Shown: positions 19,615 through 28,912 of the stretch, in pieces
How positions within the stretch are numbered: the first letter of the stretch is position 1
Layout of the letters: every line of letters begins with the position of its first letter
Origin: Cytophagaceae bacterium SCN 52-12
GTDB lineage: Bacteria; Bacteroidota; Bacteroidia; Cytophagales; Spirosomataceae
Reading direction: 5' to 3'
Assembly: GCA_001724175.1 (NCBI GenBank)
Contig: MEDT01000055.1
Location: forward strand, 1-35,369
DNA length: 35,369 bases
Notes under the pieces: generated by a model
What the model saw: only the letters and a program-made list of their open reading frames with translations
Told to the model about the DNA's origin: nothing
Database searches by the model: none
Position numbers and translations under genes: made by a program

Positions 19615-21237
19615 ATGACAGACGTCAGGGAGCAAACATACAGCAGCGACACAGAGTTCCTCAGGAAAATGAAAAAGAGAAGCGATTTCGAAAATGACAG
19701 GCGCGGAGCCGGAGGCCCGGATTCCCACCGCCGGGAGCCCGGACGTCGGGAAGATGAAAGCCGGCGCGGGGAAGATGCACGCGCTTACAGGGGGAGACCT
19801 CAGGAAGATCCGCGGGATCGTGATGACCGGCCCTACGGCAGGAGATCGCGCGGAGAGAATCGTTCCGGTCCTGACAGCCAGCCGAAGGAATCCCGTGGTT
19901 TCAGTAAGCCGGGAGACTGGAAAAAAGCCGGGGAAAGACCATTTCCCCGGGAATATGACCGTGAAAAAAGCGGGTCGAAAGACCGTGAACGTGAGGCCCG
20001 CCCGTTCCAGGGGCGGTACTCGGGAGATAAAGGACCCGACAGGGACTTTTCCGGAGAAAGGAGACGTAGCAGCTCCCGGGACGACAGAGAGACCGGAAGA
20101 AGGGGCAGGGATGATGAGGCCCGGTATTCAGAAGATAAAGGAGATGACAAACGGTTTTCAGGGGAAAGGAGAAGAAGTGGCTTCCGGGATGAAAGGGAGT
20201 CAGGAAGAAGAAGCAGGGATCATGAGGGTCGGTACCCGGAAGATAAAGGGCCTGATAGAGGCTTTTCCGGGGAAAAAAGACCGTATTCCCGCAGATTTGA
20301 CAAGGACGAAAAACCGGACGGGGCATCCGATTTCCGGCCGCGCGAAGGCCGCTTTCAGCGGCGTTCTCCCGGCAACGATGAGAGATTTACCGATCCCGGG
20401 CCGGCAAGGGGAAGACGGGAAGAGAAAGAAGAAAGCTTCCGGCGGACGTCCGACAGGATGCAGCGCCCGGACTATTATGCCCGTGACGCAGGCAGGAAAA
20501 ATACCAAAAACGCGGCGCCCGGCCAGGACGACCGGATACGCCTGAACCGCTTTATAGCCAATGCCGGTATCTGCTCGAGAAGAGAAGCCGACGAGCTCAT
20601 CGAAGCCGGACAGATTACCGTAAACGGCAAAGTGGTCAATGAAATGGGCTTCAAGGTCGGGCCGGCCGATGTCGTCAAGTACGGTAAGCGTATATTGAAC
20701 GCAGAGAAGCTCGTCTATATCCTTCTCAACAAGCCGAAGGATTATATCACCACTACCGATGATCCTGAAGACCGGCGGACGGTGCTTCATCTGATAGAAG
20801 GCGCCTGTGAAGAGCGGGTTTATCCCGTCGGGCGACTGGACAGGAACACGACGGGCCTGCTGCTCATCACCAACGACGGGGAGCTGGCCGACAAGCTTAC
20901 CCATCCTTCGCACAACATTAAAAAGGTATACCAGGCGGAGCTGGACAAACCTATCACGCTCGAAGATTTTGAAACCCTGAAAAACGGGGTCGAGCTGGAG
21001 GATGGATTTGTCAAGCCGGACGACATCGGGATCGTGACGCCCGACGCGTTCGTGGTCGGAATAGAAATCCACAGCGGGCGTAACCGCATCGTGCGGCGCA
21101 TGTTCGAGCACCTCGGCTACGAAGTCAAAAAGCTTGATCGCACGACCTTCGCCGGGTTGAACAAAAAGGATCTTCCGAGAGGCAACTGGCGGTTCCTTAC
21201 TCAAAAGGAGGTGATCACGCTGAAGTTCCTGGTCTGA
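19615..21237 (+). CDS. rluB: RluB/RsuA-family 23S rRNA pseudouridine synthase with repetitive N-terminal tail
   Basis: The 540-residue protein has two parts. The first about 300 residues are a highly charged Arg/Asp/Gly/Ser-rich, presumably disordered tail. Inside it a 36-residue unit (starting RYSGDKGPDRDFSGERRR) is repeated nearly three times at residues 134-169, 170-205 and 206-236. From residue 307 follows an S4 RNA-binding domain (RLNRFIANAGICSRREADELI) and the pseudouridine synthase domain with the catalytic Asp in VGRLDRNTTGLLLIT, plus SGRNRIVRRMFEHLGYEVKKLDR. RluB-group enzymes modify 23S rRNA near the peptidyl-transferase centre; RluE/RluF/RsuA relatives cannot be excluded. Basic tails of this type are frequent in Bacteroidota homologues and probably bind rRNA. 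Monocistronic, convergent with trpB, ending in a hairpin terminator at 21246-21278. Confidence 0.88.
   Translation: MTDVREQTYSSDTEFLRKMKKRSDFENDRRGAGGPDSHRREPGRREDESRRGEDARAYRGRPQEDPRDRDDRPYGRRSRGENRSGPDSQPKESRGFSKPGDWKKAGERPFPREYDREKSGSKDREREARPFQGRYSGDKGPDRDFSGERRRSSSRDDRETGRRGRDDEARYSEDKGDDKRFSGERRRSGFRDERESGRRSRDHEGRYPEDKGPDRGFSGEKRPYSRRFDKDEKPDGASDFRPREGRFQRRSPGNDERFTDPGPARGRREEKEESFRRTSDRMQRPDYYARDAGRKNTKNAAPGQDDRIRLNRFIANAGICSRREADELIEAGQITVNGKVVNEMGFKVGPADVVKYGKRILNAEKLVYILLNKPKDYITTTDDPEDRRTVLHLIEGACEERVYPVGRLDRNTTGLLLITNDGELADKLTHPSHNIKKVYQAELDKPITLEDFETLKNGVELEDGFVKPDDIGIVTPDAFVVGIEIHSGRNRIVRRMFEHLGYEVKKLDRTTFAGLNKKDLPRGNWRFLTQKEVITLKFLV
20014..20325 (+). repeat. 108-bp in-frame tandem repeat inside the pseudouridine synthase gene
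   Basis: Units at 20014-20121, 20122-20229 and a partial third from 20230 encode RYxxDKGxDxxFSGEKR-like repeats. Because the unit is a multiple of three, copy-number changes would keep the reading frame. Confidence 0.75.
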
Positions 21238-21245
21238 GATACAGT

Positions 21246-21278
21246 GGCTGGCAGCTATCAGCTGTCAGCCATTTTTTT
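21246..21278 (+). terminator. Hairpin terminator of rluB made from an AGCTATCAGC-type repeat, overlapping the trpB stop
   Basis: 21246-21256 pairs with 21260-21270 (GGCTGGCAGCT / AGCTGTCAGCC, one G-U pair, 3-nt loop) and is followed on the plus strand by seven T. It also encodes the trpB stop and last codons on the minus strand. Confidence 0.75.
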
Positions 21279-22466
21279 CATATACGTACCCATATCCTTG
21301 TCTCCTCTTCCGGACAGGTTTACCACTACGACGTCTTCCGGGCTGAAATTCATTCTGCCCAGCACAGCAAGGGCATGTGAAGACTCCAGGGCGGGGATGA
21401 TCCCTTCAAGCCTGGTCAGCTCAAACGCCGCTTCCACCACCTCATCGTCGGTAGCAGACAAAAACGTCGCACGGCCCGTTTCAAACAGGTGGGCGTGTAT
21501 AGGACCGATACCCGGGTAATCCAGGCCCGCCGAGATGGAATAGGGCTCGACGACCTGTCCGTCCTCCGTTTGCATCAGAATGGTCTTGCTCCCGTGCAAT
21601 ACTCCCGGTTTGCCCAGCGCAGTGGTCGCTGCCGAATGCCCCGAATCCACCCCCAGCCCTGCAGCTTCCACGGCTACCAGCTTTACGGAAGGCGTATGGA
21701 GATAATGATAGAAAGCGCCGGCAGCATTGCTCCCTCCTCCTACGCATGCCATTACGTAGTCAGGGGTTTCGCGGCCTTCCTGCTCCATGAGCTGCTGCCT
21801 GATCTCTTCCGATATAACCGATTGGAACCTGGCTACCATGTCAGGATACGGATGAGGGCCTACTACCGAGCCTATGATATAATGGGTATCCTCAGGGTTG
21901 TTTATCCAGTGGCGCATGGCTTCGTTGGTCGCATCTTTCAGCGTCTTCGAGCCGCAGGTAGCCGCCCGCACCTCGGCGCCCAGCATTTTCATGCGGGCCA
22001 CGTTGGGGGCCTGACGCTGTATATCTACCTCTCCCATGTAAACGATACATTCGAGGTTCATGAGCGCGCAGACGGTAGCGGTAGCCACGCCATGCTGGCC
22101 AGCCCCGGTTTCCGCCACTATTTTCTTTTTTCCCAGCCGCTGCGCCAGCAGTATCTGCCCTATCGTATTGTTCACTTTATGGGCGCCCGTATGGCACAGG
22201 TCTTCCCGCTTAAGATAAATCCTGCCGCCATACTTCGCGGAAAGCCTTTCTGCATAATAAAGCGGCGTAGGCCGTCCGACGTAGTTCTTCAACAGGTACC
22301 TGAACTGTTTCTGAAAGCTTTCTTCTGAAATAAGCGCAAGATATTTTTGCTGAAGCTCCTCCACATTGGGATGCAGCATTTCGGGAACAAAAGCGCCGCC
22401 GTAATTCCCGTAGTACCCTCTTTGGTCAACCTCAAAAGATTTTTCTGTCAATCTGCTTTCGATCAT
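21258..22466 (-). CDS. trpB: Tryptophan synthase beta chain
   Basis: This 402-residue PLP enzyme condenses indole with L-serine to give tryptophan. The PLP Lys is in [13 protein letters not shown] (K97), the phosphate-binding loop is [10 protein letters not shown], and the C-terminal block has [13 protein letters not shown]. Length is normal for TrpB1, the form that pairs with TrpA. It is the last gene of the trp operon here. The usual partner trpA does not follow: the next gene is rluB on the other strand. Its last residues (MADS) and stop fall in the repeat that also forms the rluB terminator. A REP-like hairpin element precedes it. Confidence 0.96.
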
Positions 22467-22483
22467 TGTCTTTGTTTTCTTTC

Positions 22484-22530
22484 CCCGGGGCTGCGCCCCG
22501 GGCCGATGTATGGCGCCCTTTCAGGGCTTT
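22484..22530. repeat. REP-like double-hairpin element between trpF and trpB (copy 2)
   Basis: A perfect palindrome CCCGGGGC-TGC-GCCCCGGG (22484-22502) is followed by a short spacer and a GCCC-TTTCA-GGGC hairpin (22515-22527) ending in TTT. This CCCCGGG / GCGCCCTTTCAGGGCTTT pair is a common dispersed intergenic element in Bacteroidota. It occupies most of the 70-bp trpF-trpB gap and could affect mRNA stability. Confidence 0.65.
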
Positions 22531-22536
22531 AAAAAA

Positions 22537-23178
22537 TTAGTCCTGCTCTTCGTCGGGCCGTATTTTCTGGATAAATGCGCGTACCTGCTCTATGTTTTTC
22601 ATTCCGGGCTCGATTTCAAATTTGCTGTTGATGTCGACCCCGTATATCGGTAGTGTCTTGTTCAGCAGCAGCACCTCGTCGATATTATCGATCCCTATTC
22701 CACCGCTTAAGAAAAAAGGCTTTTCGTTATCGTATTTTCTGAGGATGCTCCAGTCGAAGGACATCCCGTTCCCGCCGGGACTTTTACCGGGCGTGTCGAA
22801 AAGGAAAAAATCGCAGTGGGGTTTGTAATTGTTCAGCATCGCAAAATTGAAGTGCTCGTCGACCAGGAAAGCCTTGATGATGTTGACGCCTTTCTGACGG
22901 ATGCTCCTGCAAAAATCCGGAAGCTCGCTCCCGTGGAGCTGAACGTACTGGAGGTCGTACTGCTTTACCACCGACAGGATATAATCAGGGCTTGCATTTA
23001 CAAAAACCCCGACTTTGTTGATCCCTCTCGGGATTGCCCTGATCGTTTCGTCGTCCAGCGCATCGCCTACGTACCTGGGCGACTTCTCATAGAATATAAA
23101 CCCGATAAATGACGGACGCAAGGCTACCAGCTCCCGGATATTAGCCTTGTCCCGCATTCCGCATACTTTGACTTTCAT
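22537..23178 (-). CDS. trpF: Phosphoribosylanthranilate isomerase
   Basis: This 213-residue (beta/alpha)8 enzyme carries out the Amadori rearrangement of phosphoribosylanthranilate to CdRP. The catalytic Cys is in VKVCGMRD (C6), and the phosphate-binding features FDTPGKSPGGNG-x-SFDW and LSGGIGIDNI are present, ending with GVDINSKFE-x-x-PG-x-K, all diagnostic of TrpF. Stand-alone rather than fused to TrpC, as usual in Bacteroidota. It lies 108 bp after trpC, with the gap taken up by a repeat. Confidence 0.95.
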   Translation of the reverse strand: MKVKVCGMRDKANIRELVALRPSFIGFIFYEKSPRYVGDALDDETIRAIPRGINKVGVFVNASPDYILSVVKQYDLQYVQLHGSELPDFCRSIRQKGVNIIKAFLVDEHFNFAMLNNYKPHCDFFLFDTPGKSPGGNGMSFDWSILRKYDNEKPFFLSGGIGIDNIDEVLLLNKTLPIYGVDINSKFEIEPGMKNIEQVRAFIQKIRPDEEQD

Positions 23179-23203
23179 ACGATCGATAATTTATATGAAA
23201 AAT

Positions 23204-23287
23204 AGCAATCAGCTATCAGCAGTCAGCTATCGGCGCTTATTCATCAGCTATCGGGCTGATCGCTGATTTCTGACTACTGACAGCTAT
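23204..23287. repeat. AGCTATCAGC-type repeat between trpC and trpF
   Basis: The segment is a run of degenerate copies of TCAGCTATCAGC/GCTGATCGCTGA in both orientations, giving several alternative hairpins. The same motif recurs at 21244-21271, about 31221-31240 and 34497-34597. Confidence 0.65.
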
Positions 23288-24103
23288 TTATGTGTGTTCA
23301 AATAGCGCCCGCTGACCGGCTATCTGTTCCTGCAACGCCTGCAGGGTTTTGGCAGGAGTCTCCGTTTTCATAAACGTCTCTCCTATCAGGAATCCCTTAT
23401 AGCCTGCCCGGAAAAGCTTCCACAGCGTCTTCGCATCTTTCAGCCCGCTCTCCGATATTTTAACAAATGTATCCGGGATCTGTTCAGACAGCTCGAGGGA
23501 TACGTCTATCGAAGTTACAAAATTCTTCAGGTTTCTGTTATTTACCCCCACTATATCCACCGAATCGCACAAAGTCTGCTGAAGTTCCTCCGCGTTATGC
23601 ACCTCCAGCAATACTTCCATTCCAAGCCGGTGAGCCTTCAGGCTCAGCTCCCTTACTTCCGAAGGAGAAAGACAGGCTGCGATCAGCAGCACCAGGTCGG
23701 CACCGATCGCTTTCGCTTCGAATAGCTGGTATTCATCGATTATAAAATCCTTCCTCAGCATCGGTATGCCCGGGTTTGCCGCTCTTGCTGCCAGGAAATC
23801 GTCGAAATCACCCCCGAAATAATGCTTGTCCGTAAGCACCGACAAAGCTGCGGCCCCCGCTTCCGCATATCCCCTGGTAACCACTTCCGGCCTGGCATTC
23901 CCGTTGATGACCCCTTTCGACGGGGACTGCTTTTTAAACTCCGATATAATGGCGGGAACCTCCGCTTTTTCTAATGCAGCTTTCAACGAAACCGGGACCC
24001 TGGCGAACAAAGGCCTCCGCTCGAGCTCCGCCAGGGGCACCTCCTGCCTGGCTGCATCCACCTCTTTTCGCTTATTGGCTACGATCTGCTCTAATATATT
24101 CAT
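23288..24103 (-). CDS. trpC: Indole-3-glycerol phosphate synthase
   Basis: This 271-residue (beta/alpha)8 enzyme closes the indole ring by decarboxylating CdRP. The signature ISEFKKQSPSKG (residues 53-64) includes the catalytic Lys and Glu, and LRKDFIIDEYQ, GVNNRNLKNF and SESGL all match IGPS. Start ATG 24103 gives the expected MNILEQIVANKRKEV opening. It lies between the alpha/beta hydrolase and trpF in the operon. Confidence 0.96.
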   Translation of the reverse strand: MNILEQIVANKRKEVDAARQEVPLAELERRPLFARVPVSLKAALEKAEVPAIISEFKKQSPSKGVINGNARPEVVTRGYAEAGAAALSVLTDKHYFGGDFDDFLAARAANPGIPMLRKDFIIDEYQLFEAKAIGADLVLLIAACLSPSEVRELSLKAHRLGMEVLLEVHNAEELQQTLCDSVDIVGVNNRNLKNFVTSIDVSLELSEQIPDTFVKISESGLKDAKTLWKLFRAGYKGFLIGETFMKTETPAKTLQALQEQIAGQRALFEHT

Positions 24104-24151
24104 GCTGGTATTTTTTAGCTTTCTATGTGTTGCCTGTAAAGTTGCTCTTTT

Positions 24152-24856
24152 TCATTCTCCCTTCTTTCTTGAGTGGCTGAGCATCCATTCGAGCAGCCTG
24201 TATTCGTTATCCGGGTCATAGACAAAATGAATGGAATGGCCCTCTCCCTTTAGCCTCGTATATTTTACGCTGCCGCCGCAGTCTTTCAGCGCCTTCACCT
24301 TCTGTTCCGTCTCGGATATCGGAACCACGTGGTCTTCCGTGCCATGAAAAGTCCAGACCGGGGTATCCTTCAGCCTGCACAGCTGGTAGGTGTCGCTTGC
24401 CCAGGCGCACAGGGGCGCCAAAGCAGCAAAAGTCCCGGGATAACGTTTGGCGACGTCAAAAGTACCTCCGCCGCCCATGCTGACGCCCGTCAGGTAGATC
24501 CGGTCGGGATCGATGCGGTACCGGCTGTTCAATTCCTTCAGCAAGGGGCCGGCCCAGTCTTCGGAAGACCATAGCCTGCCGGAAGGACATTGCGGCGCTA
24601 CCAGGATAAAATCAAACTTCCTGCCGTCTTCGGCCATCCGCGGCAGCCCCGATACCTTAACCGAAGCCAGGTTGCTGCCTCTGGCGGAGCTTCCGTGCAA
24701 ATAGATCACGAGGGGATATGCCTTTTTCGCCGCAGCGTAGCCCGCCGGCAGATAGCTCAGGTAAGAGTAGCTGACGGCGGTCCCGCCAGCGGGGGCTTTA
24801 CCCGGCGAAAGAAATCCCGCAAAAGCCAGCAGGAGAAAAGCTAAACCGGTAACCAT
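24152..24856 (-). CDS. Secreted alpha/beta hydrolase (esterase/peptidase-like) inside the trp operon
   Basis: This 234-residue protein has an N-terminal signal peptide (about 1-23) and an alpha/beta-hydrolase fold of the prolyl-oligopeptidase / PHB-depolymerase-like type. The oxyanion region is VIYLHGSSARG (50-60), the nucleophile elbow GVSMGGG gives Ser126, and the acid and base are Asp175 (HGTEDHVVP) and His207 (GEGHSIH). Substrate unknown; extracytoplasmic carbohydrate esters or lipases are typical of relatives. Its gaps to trpD (42 bp) and trpC (48 bp) are short and on the same strand, so it is co-transcribed with tryptophan genes although its secreted location does not fit the pathway. 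It may be a passenger gene. Confidence 0.82.
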   Translation of the reverse strand: MVTGLAFLLLAFAGFLSPGKAPAGGTAVSYSYLSYLPAGYAAAKKAYPLVIYLHGSSARGSNLASVKVSGLPRMAEDGRKFDFILVAPQCPSGRLWSSEDWAGPLLKELNSRYRIDPDRIYLTGVSMGGGGTFDVAKRYPGTFAALAPLCAWASDTYQLCRLKDTPVWTFHGTEDHVVPISETEQKVKALKDCGGSVKYTRLKGEGHSIHFVYDPDNEYRLLEWMLSHSRKKGE

Positions 24857-24898
24857 TTTTTTCTGAAAAACTGCTACACTCCAAAATTAACCAAGTTT

Positions 24899-25891
24899 TC
24901 AGGACGCTTCGAGGAATCTCTTAAAATGTTGCAAAGCCTTCCCGCTCTCCAGCGCCTCCCTGGCCAGCGAAATTGCCTCCTCCAGAGGAGCATCGGGATT
25001 CGCCGCGTACAAAGCCAGGCCCGCGTTGGCAATCACTACCTGCTTTTGAGCCTCCGTAGCTTCGTTTTTAAGTACCGCTTCGAAGATCCCGGCCGATTCC
25101 TGCACGGTCTCTCCCCCCGACAGCGAAACGGGATCCAGCAACGGAAATCCCAGATTTCCGGGATGGATCACTTCGTCTTTTTCAGGCGTACTGATTTTAA
25201 AAGGACCGGTAAGCGACACCTCGTCGTAGCCGTCGAGCCCGTGAACAATCAGGAAATTCTTGTCTGAGAGTTGGTACAGGTAGGAATAAAGACGCATGAT
25301 CTCGAGGTTGAAAACGCCTACCAGCTGCTTTTTAGGCAGTGCAGGGTTCACCATCGGGCCCAGTATATTAAAGAAAGTCTTGATCCCGAGCTGTCCGCGT
25401 ATAGGGCCGACGTTTTTGAGCGCCGGGTGAAACAGGGGAGCATGCAGGAAACATACGCCCGACCTGTCGATCTGCCTTTTAAGCACGTCCTCGTTATTGG
25501 TAAAAGGAGCGCCGAAATATTCCATGACAGTCGATGACCCGCAATGGGATGAGACCCCGTAATTACCGTGTTTGGCGACATTCTGCCCCGCAGCCGCTAC
25601 GACGAAGCACGACAGGGTCGAGATGTTAAAGGTATCTTTCCCGTCGCCGCCGGTACCGCAGACGTCCATCGGGTCGAAGCCCGACAAGTCTATCGGCACT
25701 CTTAGCTCCAGCAGCGCATCGCGGAAGCCCTCGAGCTCCTCAACGGTAATGCTCCTCATCACGAAAGCAGTCATAAAGGCTGCCATCTGCGCAGGATTGT
25801 ATTCTCCGCGCGCCATACCTGTCAGAACATGCTTTGCCTGCTCTTTCGACAAGTGTTTGTATTCAAAAAGATGTGTTAGTATACTTTTCAT
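24899..25891 (-). CDS. trpD: Anthranilate phosphoribosyltransferase
   Basis: This 330-residue enzyme transfers phosphoribose from PRPP to anthranilate. The PRPP loop DVCGTGGDGKDTFNIST (from about residue 77), KHGNYGVSS and the later PxLxNVxPIRGxLGxKTFFNxLGPxxNP block are intact. Length is typical and it is not fused to TrpG. It starts 15 bp after the trpG stop, consistent with coupling. Confidence 0.96.
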   Translation of the reverse strand: MKSILTHLFEYKHLSKEQAKHVLTGMARGEYNPAQMAAFMTAFVMRSITVEELEGFRDALLELRVPIDLSGFDPMDVCGTGGDGKDTFNISTLSCFVVAAAGQNVAKHGNYGVSSHCGSSTVMEYFGAPFTNNEDVLKRQIDRSGVCFLHAPLFHPALKNVGPIRGQLGIKTFFNILGPMVNPALPKKQLVGVFNLEIMRLYSYLYQLSDKNFLIVHGLDGYDEVSLTGPFKISTPEKDEVIHPGNLGFPLLDPVSLSGGETVQESAGIFEAVLKNEATEAQKQVVIANAGLALYAANPDAPLEEAISLAREALESGKALQHFKRFLEAS

Positions 25892-25906
25892 TTCGCTCCG
25901 GGCTTC

Positions 25907-26473
25907 TTATGCTTTCAACCAGTTCTCCAACATTTCTTTACCGTATTCGGTGAGTACCGATTCCGGGTGGAACTGCAGCCCCTTCACGTCATACCGGGTG
26001 TGCGCGATTCCCATTACCCGGCCTTCCCTGTCGACGGCGGTAATTTTCAGATCTTCCGGGACAGACGCCGGTATGACCGTCCAGGAGTGATAGCGGCCGG
26101 CCCTGAAGCTTCCGGGAATTCCCCTGAACAGCCGGTCGGAAGGGTCTGTTACGGTTACTTCGTGGCTTACGCCGTGCAGCACGTCCGTCATATTCTCGAG
26201 CGAAGCCCCGAATACCTCGGCGATCCCCTGCTCACCCAGGCATATGCCCAGGATGCTTTTCGAAGGCGCATACGCCCTGATCAGGTCCTGCATGATGCCG
26301 GCCTCGGAAGGTATCCCCGGCCCGGGCGACAGCAGGATTTTGTCGTAAGCGCTTACATCCTCCAGCGCTATTTTGTCGTTTCTGAAAACCTCAACCCCTG
26401 AATGCAGCTCCCGCAGGATGTACACCAGGTTGTAGGTAAATGAATCGTAATTGTCGAGAACGAGAATTCGCAT
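25907..26473 (-). CDS. trpG: Anthranilate synthase component II (glutamine amidotransferase)
   Basis: This 188-residue class I glutamine amidotransferase supplies ammonia to TrpE. The nucleophile is Cys78 in GICLGEQ, with His169 and Glu171 in QFHPESVLTEYG. The oxyanion motif SPGPGIPSEAG (49-59) is present. The residue after LG in the nucleophile loop is Glu rather than the common His, a tolerated variant. It follows trpE with a 67-bp gap that contains an ATTCAT-type repeat. PabA, for folate, would share the motifs, but the position in the trp operon favours TrpG. Confidence 0.95.
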   Translation of the reverse strand: MRILVLDNYDSFTYNLVYILRELHSGVEVFRNDKIALEDVSAYDKILLSPGPGIPSEAGIMQDLIRAYAPSKSILGICLGEQGIAEVFGASLENMTDVLHGVSHEVTVTDPSDRLFRGIPGSFRAGRYHSWTVIPASVPEDLKITAVDREGRVMGIAHTRYDVKGLQFHPESVLTEYGKEMLENWLKA

Positions 26474-26540: not shown

Positions 26541-27950
26541 CTAAAGCGCCTCCGCTTCCGCTATCGCCTTCCTGAGCGCCGCCAGCTTGTTGTTGATCTC
26601 CTGCAATTCGCTTTCAACGTCAGATTTGGCTACTACTCCCATTCCGGCCCTGTAATAAAGCGTATTGTCCCTGCTGAAAAAGGTCCTGATCGCGATGGCA
26701 TGATTGAAGTCGCCGTTAAAGCCGATAAATCCTATGGCGCCGCCATAAATGCTCCTGTTTGTCGTCTCGAGCCCGTTGATGATCTTCATGGCCATATGCT
26801 TGGGAGCGCCTGAGAGGGTCCCGGCAGGAAAAGTATCCGCCACCAGCTGCAAGGGGTTTGTCTGCTCGTTCATGATGCCGGATACCGTCGATACGAGGTG
26901 GATCACATGGGAGTAATACTGGACTTCCTTGTAGGTATCCACTTTCACGCTGTGACAGTTCCTGCTGAGATCATTCCGCGCCAGGTCTACGAGCATCACG
27001 TGCTCTGCGCTTTCCTTGGGGTCGTCGAGCAGCTTCTGGGCTGCCTGTGCGTCGGCAGCATCGTCTCCGGTGCGCCGGAACGTACCCGCGATGGGGTGTA
27101 TTTCTGCTTTGGTTCCCTTGATGTAAATCTGCTTTTCAGGCGAAGAGCCGAATACCCTGTAGCTTCCGTAATCGAAATAAAAGAGATAGGGCGAAGGGTT
27201 GATCGACCTCAAAGCCCTGTATACGTTAAAATCATCACCCCGAAACTTCCTGCTGAACCTGCGCGAAGGCACGATCTGGAACACATCTCCCCTGAGACAG
27301 TGATCGATACATTTTCTGATCACACCCCGCATTTCGTCGTCTGTCGCATTCGAAGTTTCCGGCGTGGTAGTTTTAAAGTCGTAGCGCGGGAAGTTCCGGT
27401 TCCTGATCAGGACTTCCAGGCGGTCGAGCCCGTCTGAAGGCTCCTGGCCACCGTAGCTGTGTTCAAAAAGATAAAGCTCGTTTTTGAAATGATTGATGGC
27501 GATGACATACCGGAAAACCTGGTAGAAGATCTGGTCTACCTCCGTCGCTTTTTCCTGCGGCTGAATGGCAATATCCTCAAAATAGCTGACAGCATCGTAG
27601 GCGATATGCCCGAACAATCCGTTCGTAATAAAAGGAAATCCCTGGTCTTCGGTTTTAAAGCGGCCGGAGAACCCCTGCAATGCTTTTACCGCTTCCTTCC
27701 TGTCCTCCAGCTCAAAGGTTTCCGTCGTTCCGTCGGGGAACTTCTGTATTACCTGCCCCTGGTTGATCTTAAAGGAAGCCACCGGCTCGCAGCAGATATA
27801 GGAAAAGGAATTTGAAGCAGTATGGTAGTCCGAGCTTTCCAGGAGAATGGAGTTAACGTACTTGTCGCGGAGCTGCAGGTAGATGGAAACCGGCGTGATC
27901 GTATCTGCCAGGAGTTTTTTGTAGCGGGTTTTTACGTTATATATCGTCAT
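26541..27950 (-). CDS. trpE: Anthranilate synthase component I
   Basis: This 469-residue enzyme converts chorismate to anthranilate. The N-terminal LLES motif (ILLESS, 35-40) is the known tryptophan feedback-inhibition site. The chorismate-binding domain has GDVFQIVPSRRF, GTFRRTG, the LVDLARND block, GTLSGAPKHMA and YGGAIGFIGFNGDFNHAIAIRT. LLES plus the genomic context distinguish it from PabB. It is the first enzyme gene of the operon and lies directly after an attenuator (leader ORF 28060-28134, terminator 27987-28027), so it is controlled both by attenuation and by feedback. Confidence 0.96.
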   Translation of the reverse strand: MTIYNVKTRYKKLLADTITPVSIYLQLRDKYVNSILLESSDYHTASNSFSYICCEPVASFKINQGQVIQKFPDGTTETFELEDRKEAVKALQGFSGRFKTEDQGFPFITNGLFGHIAYDAVSYFEDIAIQPQEKATEVDQIFYQVFRYVIAINHFKNELYLFEHSYGGQEPSDGLDRLEVLIRNRNFPRYDFKTTTPETSNATDDEMRGVIRKCIDHCLRGDVFQIVPSRRFSRKFRGDDFNVYRALRSINPSPYLFYFDYGSYRVFGSSPEKQIYIKGTKAEIHPIAGTFRRTGDDAADAQAAQKLLDDPKESAEHVMLVDLARNDLSRNCHSVKVDTYKEVQYYSHVIHLVSTVSGIMNEQTNPLQLVADTFPAGTLSGAPKHMAMKIINGLETTNRSIYGGAIGFIGFNGDFNHAIAIRTFFSRDNTLYYRAGMGVVAKSDVESELQEINNKLAALRKAIAEAEAL

Positions 27951-27986
27951 GTTTTTCAGGATAAATACCTATTAAATTTTTGTATC

Positions 27987-28027
27987 AAAAAAAAAGCGGC
28001 CCGTTGTCAGGATGGACAACGGGCCGC
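27987..28027 (-). terminator. trp operon attenuator terminator
   Basis: A perfect 13-bp stem (GCGGCCCGTTGTC at 27996-28008 pairing with 28015-28027, 6-nt loop) is followed on the minus strand by nine T (27987-27995). It lies between the leader ORF and trpE, 36 bp before the trpE start. The segment TGGACA at the end of the leader ORF can pair with TGTCCA in the 5' arm and loop of this stem, offering an antiterminator. Confidence 0.88.
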
Positions 28028-28059
28028 ATATGTATCTTCGATTTATTTTTGACAATAAC

Positions 28060-28134
28060 CTATATAGCGCGGGTGTCCACCGAACGGAATGACTCCTGCC
28101 ACCACCACAAAGCTATATGAGCTATACTGATCAT
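28060..28134 (-). CDS. trpL: trp leader peptide (24 aa with Trp-Trp-Trp)
   Basis: An ATG at 28134, preceded by AGAAG, opens a 24-codon ORF with three consecutive TGG codons (codons 10-12, at 28099-28107) and ends in TAG at 28060. Downstream is a strong terminator, then trpE. This is the standard layout of ribosome-mediated attenuation: with scarce charged tRNA-Trp the ribosome stalls at the Trp codons, the antiterminator forms, and trpE is transcribed. Three Trp in 24 residues by chance is very unlikely. The peptide itself has no role beyond translation. Confidence 0.9.
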   Translation of the reverse strand: MISIAHIALWWWQESFRSVDTRAI

Positions 28135-28157
28135 CTTCTGTTTTTGACTTTACGGGG

Positions 28158-28165
28158 CAAATGTA
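28158..28165 (-). promoter_or_regulatory. Bacteroidota-type -7 promoter element (TACATTTG) of the trp operon
   Basis: TACATTTG on the minus strand matches TAnnTTTG and predicts transcription about 20 nt before the trpL ATG. A clear -33 element is not seen. Confidence 0.6.
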
Positions 28166-28267: not shown

Positions 28268-28912
28268 ATGTTAAAAAAAGAGCGTTTCCGGCTATTCCTG
28301 GAATATTTTTCGACCCACTTTCCCGAACCTCAAACCGAGCTCCACTACGGAAATCCCTATGAGCTGCTTGTGGCGGTAGTGCTGTCGGCGCAATGCACTG
28401 ATAAACGCGTAAACATGGTGACTCCTGCGCTCTTCGATCGCTTTCCGGACGCAGTTTCGCTGGCGGCTTCCACCCCTGAAGAGGTTTTTACCTACATCAG
28501 GTCCATCTCCTACCCGAACAACAAAAGCAAGCACCTGGTGGGCCTGGCCAGGATGCTGGAAACAGAATTCGGATCGGAAGTACCGGCAAAGCAGGAAGAC
28601 CTGCAACGTTTGCCCGGCGTAGGCCGTAAGACTGCTAATGTAATAGCGTCCGTTATTTTTAACCAGCCCGCTATGGCCGTCGATACGCATGTTTTCAGGG
28701 TTTCACATCGTCTCGGGTTAGTGGGTGCAAAGGCCACAACCCCGCTTGCAGTAGAAAAGGAGCTTGTAAAATACATCCCTACCGGGTTGATTCACAAAGC
28801 TCACCACTGGCTTATTTTGCACGGTCGCTATATTTGCGTGGCGCGTAATCCCAAATGCGGGGAATGTCCCCTGAGCAGCTTCTGCAAATACTACGAAAAG
28901 AAGGCCGCCTAG
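28268..28912 (+). CDS. nth: Endonuclease III
   Basis: This 214-residue base-excision repair glycosylase/AP lyase removes oxidised pyrimidines. The helix-hairpin-helix LPGVGRKTANV carries catalytic Lys121, and Asp139 lies in MAVDTHVFR. The C-terminal 4Fe-4S cluster has Cys190-x6-Cys197-x2-Cys200-x5-Cys206, the canonical Nth spacing. It is divergent from trpL/trpE and stands alone, with its own TAATTTTG element. Confidence 0.95.
   Translation: MLKKERFRLFLEYFSTHFPEPQTELHYGNPYELLVAVVLSAQCTDKRVNMVTPALFDRFPDAVSLAASTPEEVFTYIRSISYPNNKSKHLVGLARMLETEFGSEVPAKQEDLQRLPGVGRKTANVIASVIFNQPAMAVDTHVFRVSHRLGLVGAKATTPLAVEKELVKYIPTGLIHKAHHWLILHGRYICVARNPKCGECPLSSFCKYYEKKAA

Follow-up and report, generated by a model that had tools for sequence, protein, structure and literature searches.

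Tryptophan leaders have been described in Bacteroidota before. Rfam family RF01692, 'Bacteroid-trp, Bacteroidete tryptophan peptide leader RNA', dates from Weinberg et al. 2010 (PMC2864571). A 2019 paper notes this family upstream of the Flavobacterium psychrophilum trp operon and likens it to the E. coli attenuator (PMC6414381), and a 2021 transcriptome of the same organism reports strong clues to leader-peptide attenuation before amino-acid operons (PMC9723704). The main text of a survey of premature terminators (PMC2965389) contains no Bacteroidota or trp-leader case. The kind of switch dealt with here is already known in the phylum, and the statement of an earlier, sequence-only reading of this DNA that it is little described there was not upheld, given the 2010 family and its discussion in 2019. 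The version in the window is divergent and is missed by RF01692, as are most of its close relatives.

The window (the whole stretch of 35,369 nucleotides that was analysed, from Cytophagaceae bacterium SCN 52-12) carries upstream of trpE an element that we read, with a probability of about 0.93, as a ribosome-mediated transcription attenuator of the trp operon controlled by charged tRNA-Trp. This reading is strongly supported by conservation across the phylum, by covariation of both terminator and antiterminator, by constrained folds and by a duplicate before trpBA. The parts of the element, their conservation, the covariation of the 2:3 and 3:4 helices and the outcome of the masked folds were observed. 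From these we infer the dependence on tryptophan and, for the window leader, its translation, its tryptophan response, where transcription starts, and that termination (with its efficiency) and read-through take place. Of the features of the attenuator class, consecutive regulatory codons, a terminator before the first structural gene and a computed antiterminator that a ribosome can block were found; the anti-antiterminator (1:2) hairpin has support across species and is weak in the window.

The promoter, the WWW ORF, the 13-bp hairpin and the nine U given by the sequence-only reading matched base for base on re-reading (Table 1). The complementarities it had pointed out are also all present, namely TGGACA (28079-28074) with TGTCCA (28018-28013), CCGC with GCGG, and GGTG with CACC. 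The promoter box is separated from the leader AUG by 23 nt, and from the position of the box the 5' UTR would be roughly 18-20 nt long. At the -33 position the window has a weak element (CCTTTATTC). Of 200 dinucleotide shuffles, 199 folded less well than the leader (z -3.5), and the hairpin is a very strong terminator on folding.

Table 1. Features of the leader and operon in the window, and comparable loci in relatives. Positions are those of the window unless a locus is named.
Feature	Position	Strand	Remarks
-7 promoter element TACATTTG	28165-28158	-	Bacteroidota type TAnnTTTG; transcription start predicted from its position
Leader peptide ORF MISIAHIALWWWQESFRSVDTRAI*	28134-28060	-	24 codons + TAG
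Three consecutive Trp codons TGGTGGTGG	28107-28099	-	Control (stall) site
Putative region 1 (GTCATTCC)	28093-28086	-	Just 3' of Trp run; placed by analogy with relatives
Region 2 (GGTGGACACCCGC)	28081-28069	-	Antiterminator 5' strand; inside leader ORF end
Region 3 (GCGGCCCGTTGTCCATCC)	28027-28010	-	Terminator 5' arm + loop; antiterminator 3' strand
Intrinsic terminator (region 3 with region 4)	28027-27987	-	13-bp perfect stem, 6-nt loop, nine U
Terminator 5' arm GCGGCCCGTTGTC	28027-28015	-	Followed by loop CATCCT
Terminator 3' arm GACAACGGGCCGC	28008-27996	-
Nine T of terminator	27995-27987	-
trpE ATG	27950	-	First gene 3' of terminator
trpE, anthranilate synthase component I	26541-27950	-	Pfam Anth_synt_I_N + Chorismate_bind
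Operon remainder: trpG, trpD, alpha/beta-hydrolase gene, trpC, trpF, trpB	21258-26473	-
-7 box 4-8 nt before leader AUG	L017, L021, L026, L120, L121, L123, L130, L153 and others
Second WWW leader + terminator before trpBA	L222 (G020:C7, about 2060-2180)	-
Second WWW leader + terminator before trpBA	L223 3006-3125	+
Tandem Trp leader ORFs before trpE	L139 1178-1459		Fulvivirga kasyanovii
Tandem Trp leader ORFs before trpE	L130 1199-1488		Rufibacter ruber

RF01692 gave no match in the window, either at the gathering cut-off or at E<=10, and none in the whole source genome. Among 59 relatives the model matched 6 at E<=0.01 and 2 above the cut-off, all at the trpE site. Flavobacterial loci (L055, L063) are matched, as are the trpE leaders of a few members of the source's own family (G027, G035, G005). 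The window leader shares with RF01692 the phylum, the site upstream of trpE and the kind of element, a tryptophan peptide leader; its terminator is longer and more GC-rich, and its regions 2 and 3 differ. Intermediates link the two, as own-family relatives match RF01692, and a covariance model made from 31 same-family relatives with the window left out (R1) matches the window as well as flavobacterial loci. On these comparisons the window leader is very probably a divergent homologue in the RF01692 group that the model misses. It is outside RF01692 by the model's score criterion and belongs there by mechanism and position.

The enterobacterial Rfam family Trp_leader likewise had no match in the window at the gathering cut-off or at E<=10, and scans of the window with Rfam at both settings gave no relevant family. 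With enterobacterial trpL the window leader has in common the consecutive Trp codons, the alternative 2:3 and 3:4 helices, the intrinsic terminator and trpE as the next gene. It differs in its Bacteroidota promoter and in its 1:2 helix, a weak one placed 3' of the Trp run. To our knowledge, no use of a Shine-Dalgarno sequence is expected in Bacteroidota, unlike at enterobacterial trpL. The leaders predicted in F. psychrophilum belong to the same phylum, and attenuation was inferred for them too (PMC9723704, PMC6414381); the window leader is of a different family and sequence, and the mechanism in both is a prediction.

Conservation of the leader and terminator before trpE

Loci of trpE were located via TrpE in 59 relatives, in part of 296 genomes of the phylum and in 80 named records, chiefly Cytophagales. 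The detector called an in-frame ORF whose run of two or more Trp codons is followed, after 5-130 nt, by a terminator. A search of this kind in related trpE upstream regions had been proposed in the sequence-only reading, and the layout was found to be kept upstream of trpE in 179 of 197 Bacteroidota loci, 154 of them with WWW. The same detector found nothing in 197 reverse complements and 1970 dinucleotide shuffles. Leaders with WW or WWW are present in nearly all relatives. In the alignment of relatives (A1) the Trp codons are invariant or nearly so, and the leader peptide outside the Trp run is poorly conserved. The source's family includes leaders that are the same or almost the same as those of Runella. 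On these sequence comparisons, the layout of leader and terminator before trpE is not coincidental.

R1 matched the window leader with an E of 3.2e-9 when the window was searched. In the whole source genome the leader was the sole strong match (E 4.7e-7), with the next best at 0.05. Absence of the Trp run or hairpin from close relatives had been named as an outcome that would count against the attenuator; R1 matched at E<=0.01 in 150 of 150 family genomes, covering 36 of 36 genera. One of these 150 matches (E 0.002) comes from G010, which has no full trpE match, and is probably noise. Weaker R1 matches within the window, at 21184-21275 (+; E 0.003) and 21241-21334 (-), coincide with the convergent terminator 3' of trpB and were rejected as leaders.

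A textbook trp attenuator thus appears as the rule before trpE in Cytophagales and in much of Bacteroidota, and most cases escape the public RNA model. R1 is a covariance model ready for use, and RF01692 could be rebuilt, given that the element is near-universal in the source's family.

Alternative helices and the position of the ribosome

Among the 31 relatives, 8 of the 11 consensus pairs of the terminator stem have changed in a compensatory way. For the 2:3 helix, the stretch from the Trp run to the terminator was paired with the terminator arm and loop of its own or of other species. Own pairings had a mean of -13.4 kcal/mol, against -9.8 (sd 0.25) when region 3 was permuted between species (z -14). 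The effect was seen when the set was limited to the source's family (z -5.1), to the named Cytophagales (z -8.4) or to loci outside the class (z -5.3), and it persisted when the set was thinned to 36 dissimilar sequences (z -11.1). It was not significant within family f25, a Flavobacteriaceae-like set in which the sequences hardly vary. In the window, GGTGGACACCCGC pairs with GCGGCCCGTTGTCCATCC at -18.0 kcal/mol, a value that no partner from another family equals. The complementarity is visible by eye in relatives, as GTTGAACAG/CTGTTCAAC in L018 and GATGAATGG/CCGTTCATC in L027. The antiterminator of the sequence-only reading, in which the end of the leader ORF pairs with the terminator 5' arm and loop through TGGACA/TGTCCA and CCGC/GCGG, proved right in view of this strong cross-species covariation.

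In relatives, region 1 directly adjoins the Trp run on its 3' side and forms pairs with region 2, such as CGTTCttCTC...GAGatGAACG in L004. Across species, own 1:2 pairings scored -5.2 compared with -4.1 for permuted ones (z -8). The corresponding helix in the window (28093-28086 with 28081-28075) is weak at -5.7 kcal/mol, and 24% of foreign partners are equally good. A different 1:2 hairpin had been suggested, in which GGTG of the Trp codons pairs with CACC. It found no support, as the constrained folds do not favour it and region 1 of the relatives is placed 3' of the Trp run. A covariation test between the Trp codons and region 2 gave z -0.1, with low power since the codons are invariant.

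Folds under the constraints of a stalled or a translating ribosome, also proposed in the sequence-only reading, left the 2:3 helix in place with the ribosome at the Trp codons and abolished it with the ribosome at the stop codon. Before region 4 is made, P(2:3) was 0.96-0.97 with the ribosome mask on any Trp codon and 0.0 with the mask on the stop codon. In the absence of a ribosome, 2:3 prevails at this stage (P 0.96) because the 1:2 helix of the window is weak, and once a ribosome has been released, basal termination would be leakier than in E. coli. Once region 4 is made, the terminator 3:4 has a P of 1.0 in every ribosome state. Since the terminator wins in every state of the completed RNA, the switch must be kinetic. 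The decision is kinetic in classical attenuation as well.

In the proposed mechanism, transcription would start about 20 nt upstream of the leader ORF. With charged tRNA-Trp in short supply, the leading ribosome would stall at the WWW codons and leave region 2 free to pair with region 3 as soon as the latter is transcribed. No terminator would then form, and RNA polymerase would continue into trpEGD-hydrolase-trpCFB. When tryptophan is plentiful, the ribosome would reach the UAG at 28062-28060 and cover region 2, region 3 would pair with region 4, and transcription would stop at the U run.

An ordinary terminator or insulator between trpE and the divergent nth-like gene that begins at 28268 (+), next to a WWW ORF present by chance, would account for the great strength of the hairpin and suits an intergenic region with a divergent neighbour. 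It does not account for the recurrence of leader and terminator together before trpE and in none of the controls, nor for the copying of the pair before trpBA in one genus, and the 2:3 covariation would have no role. Given this conservation, such a terminator is very unlikely. Control of the same RNA by another tryptophan effector, namely a TRAP-like protein, a T-box, a riboswitch for free tryptophan or TnaC-like stalling on free tryptophan, has in its favour that Trp codons occur in TnaC-type peptides too. However, no T-box or other Rfam regulator was found in the scans of the window, and the leader shows no (G/U)AG array. The invariant part of the peptide is the Trp codon run, with little conservation beyond it, unlike what is expected of a peptide that senses free tryptophan. 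The chance of such an effector is small.

Leader genes close to structural genes in Bacteroidota have been proposed as aids to reinitiation (PMC4833913), and the leader ribosome could by analogy gate reinitiation at trpE in place of termination. But 109 nt lie between the leader UAG and the trpE start, with the 13-bp hairpin and nine U in between, and the conserved alternative pairing is aimed at the terminator arm and not at the start of trpE. Mainly translational control is therefore hardly probable.

Promoters and extra leaders in relatives

The motif TAnnTTTG was present within 60 nt of the leader start in 141 of 179 leaders, compared with 4.6% of shuffles, and 97 of these 141 had TTTG at the -33 distance (9% of control positions). 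The gap between box and AUG is often just 4-8 nt (mode 4), as seen in Runella, Emticicia, Rufibacter and several flavobacteria. The Bacteroidota box is centred at -7 (PMC7366714), so a gap of 4-8 nt would put the start at the leader AUG or within a few nt of it. This suggests that in many genera the leader mRNAs are leaderless or nearly so. Transcripts with no 5' UTR or a very short one are uncommon elsewhere in Bacteroidota; 5' UTRs under 10 nt make up 3.7% in B. thetaiotaomicron, and 5.5% are leaderless in F. psychrophilum. A described case is trpL/rnTrpL, the trpE attenuator of Sinorhizobium meliloti, whose leader mRNA starts at the AUG (PMC7298713). It has no 5' UTR, and the position of the promoter points to the same in many of the window's relatives; it belongs to an Alphaproteobacterium, and the window leader itself, with its 23-nt gap, is not leaderless.

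In the genus of G020 and G497, trpBA lies apart from trpE. The leader before trpE reads MNVSFAKAWWWQLGSLR, and a second leader, MNNSFAKAWWWQLRNLG, stands with its own terminator directly before trpB. The leader and terminator before trpBA are evidently a duplicate of the attenuator before trpE. As the element follows the trp genes in a split operon, its function is supported.

The attenuator is ordinary in principle and reveals no new principle. Its interest lies in its breadth, in the trpBA copy, in the tandem leaders and in the apparently leaderless leaders of relatives. We regard as tentative, with odds slightly short of even, the wider proposal that ribosome-mediated trp attenuation is ancestral across Bacteroidota and far wider than the Rfam family, dispenses with Shine-Dalgarno initiation, acts in many genera on leaderless leader mRNAs (AUG within a few nt of the start), and stays with the trp genes if their operon breaks up. 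Promoters that abut the AUG, tandem leaders and the copy before trpBA are natural experiments on the coupling of ribosome and RNA polymerase without a Shine-Dalgarno sequence.

The trp operon and its surroundings

The genes of the window operon all run in one direction, in the order trpE-trpG-trpD-hydrolase-trpC-trpF-trpB, and a convergent terminator lies 3' of trpB. The closest named TrpE is that of Emticicia (67%); together with the Runella-like leaders of its family, this makes the source most probably a Spirosomataceae-like member of Cytophagales. The operon ends with trpB and lacks trpA, which is found on another contig (G000:C131:4544-5260); no Trp leader was detectable near this separate trpA. 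An alpha/beta-hydrolase (esterase-like) gene is located within the operon between trpD and trpC, at 24152-24856 (-). In F. psychrophilum the trp transcript carries a gene for an elastinolytic protease, according to the 2019 paper (PMC6414381), which is a possible parallel to the hydrolase gene.

Between trpB and trpF, an Rfam Acido-Lenti-1 hairpin was found at 22484-22528 (+) with 46.5 bits. The element is a dispersed repeat in the source's family, with 27 copies in one genome (G011), and it may be a mobile palindromic repeat. Some of the copies in that genome are in a regular array with a spacing of 140 bases.
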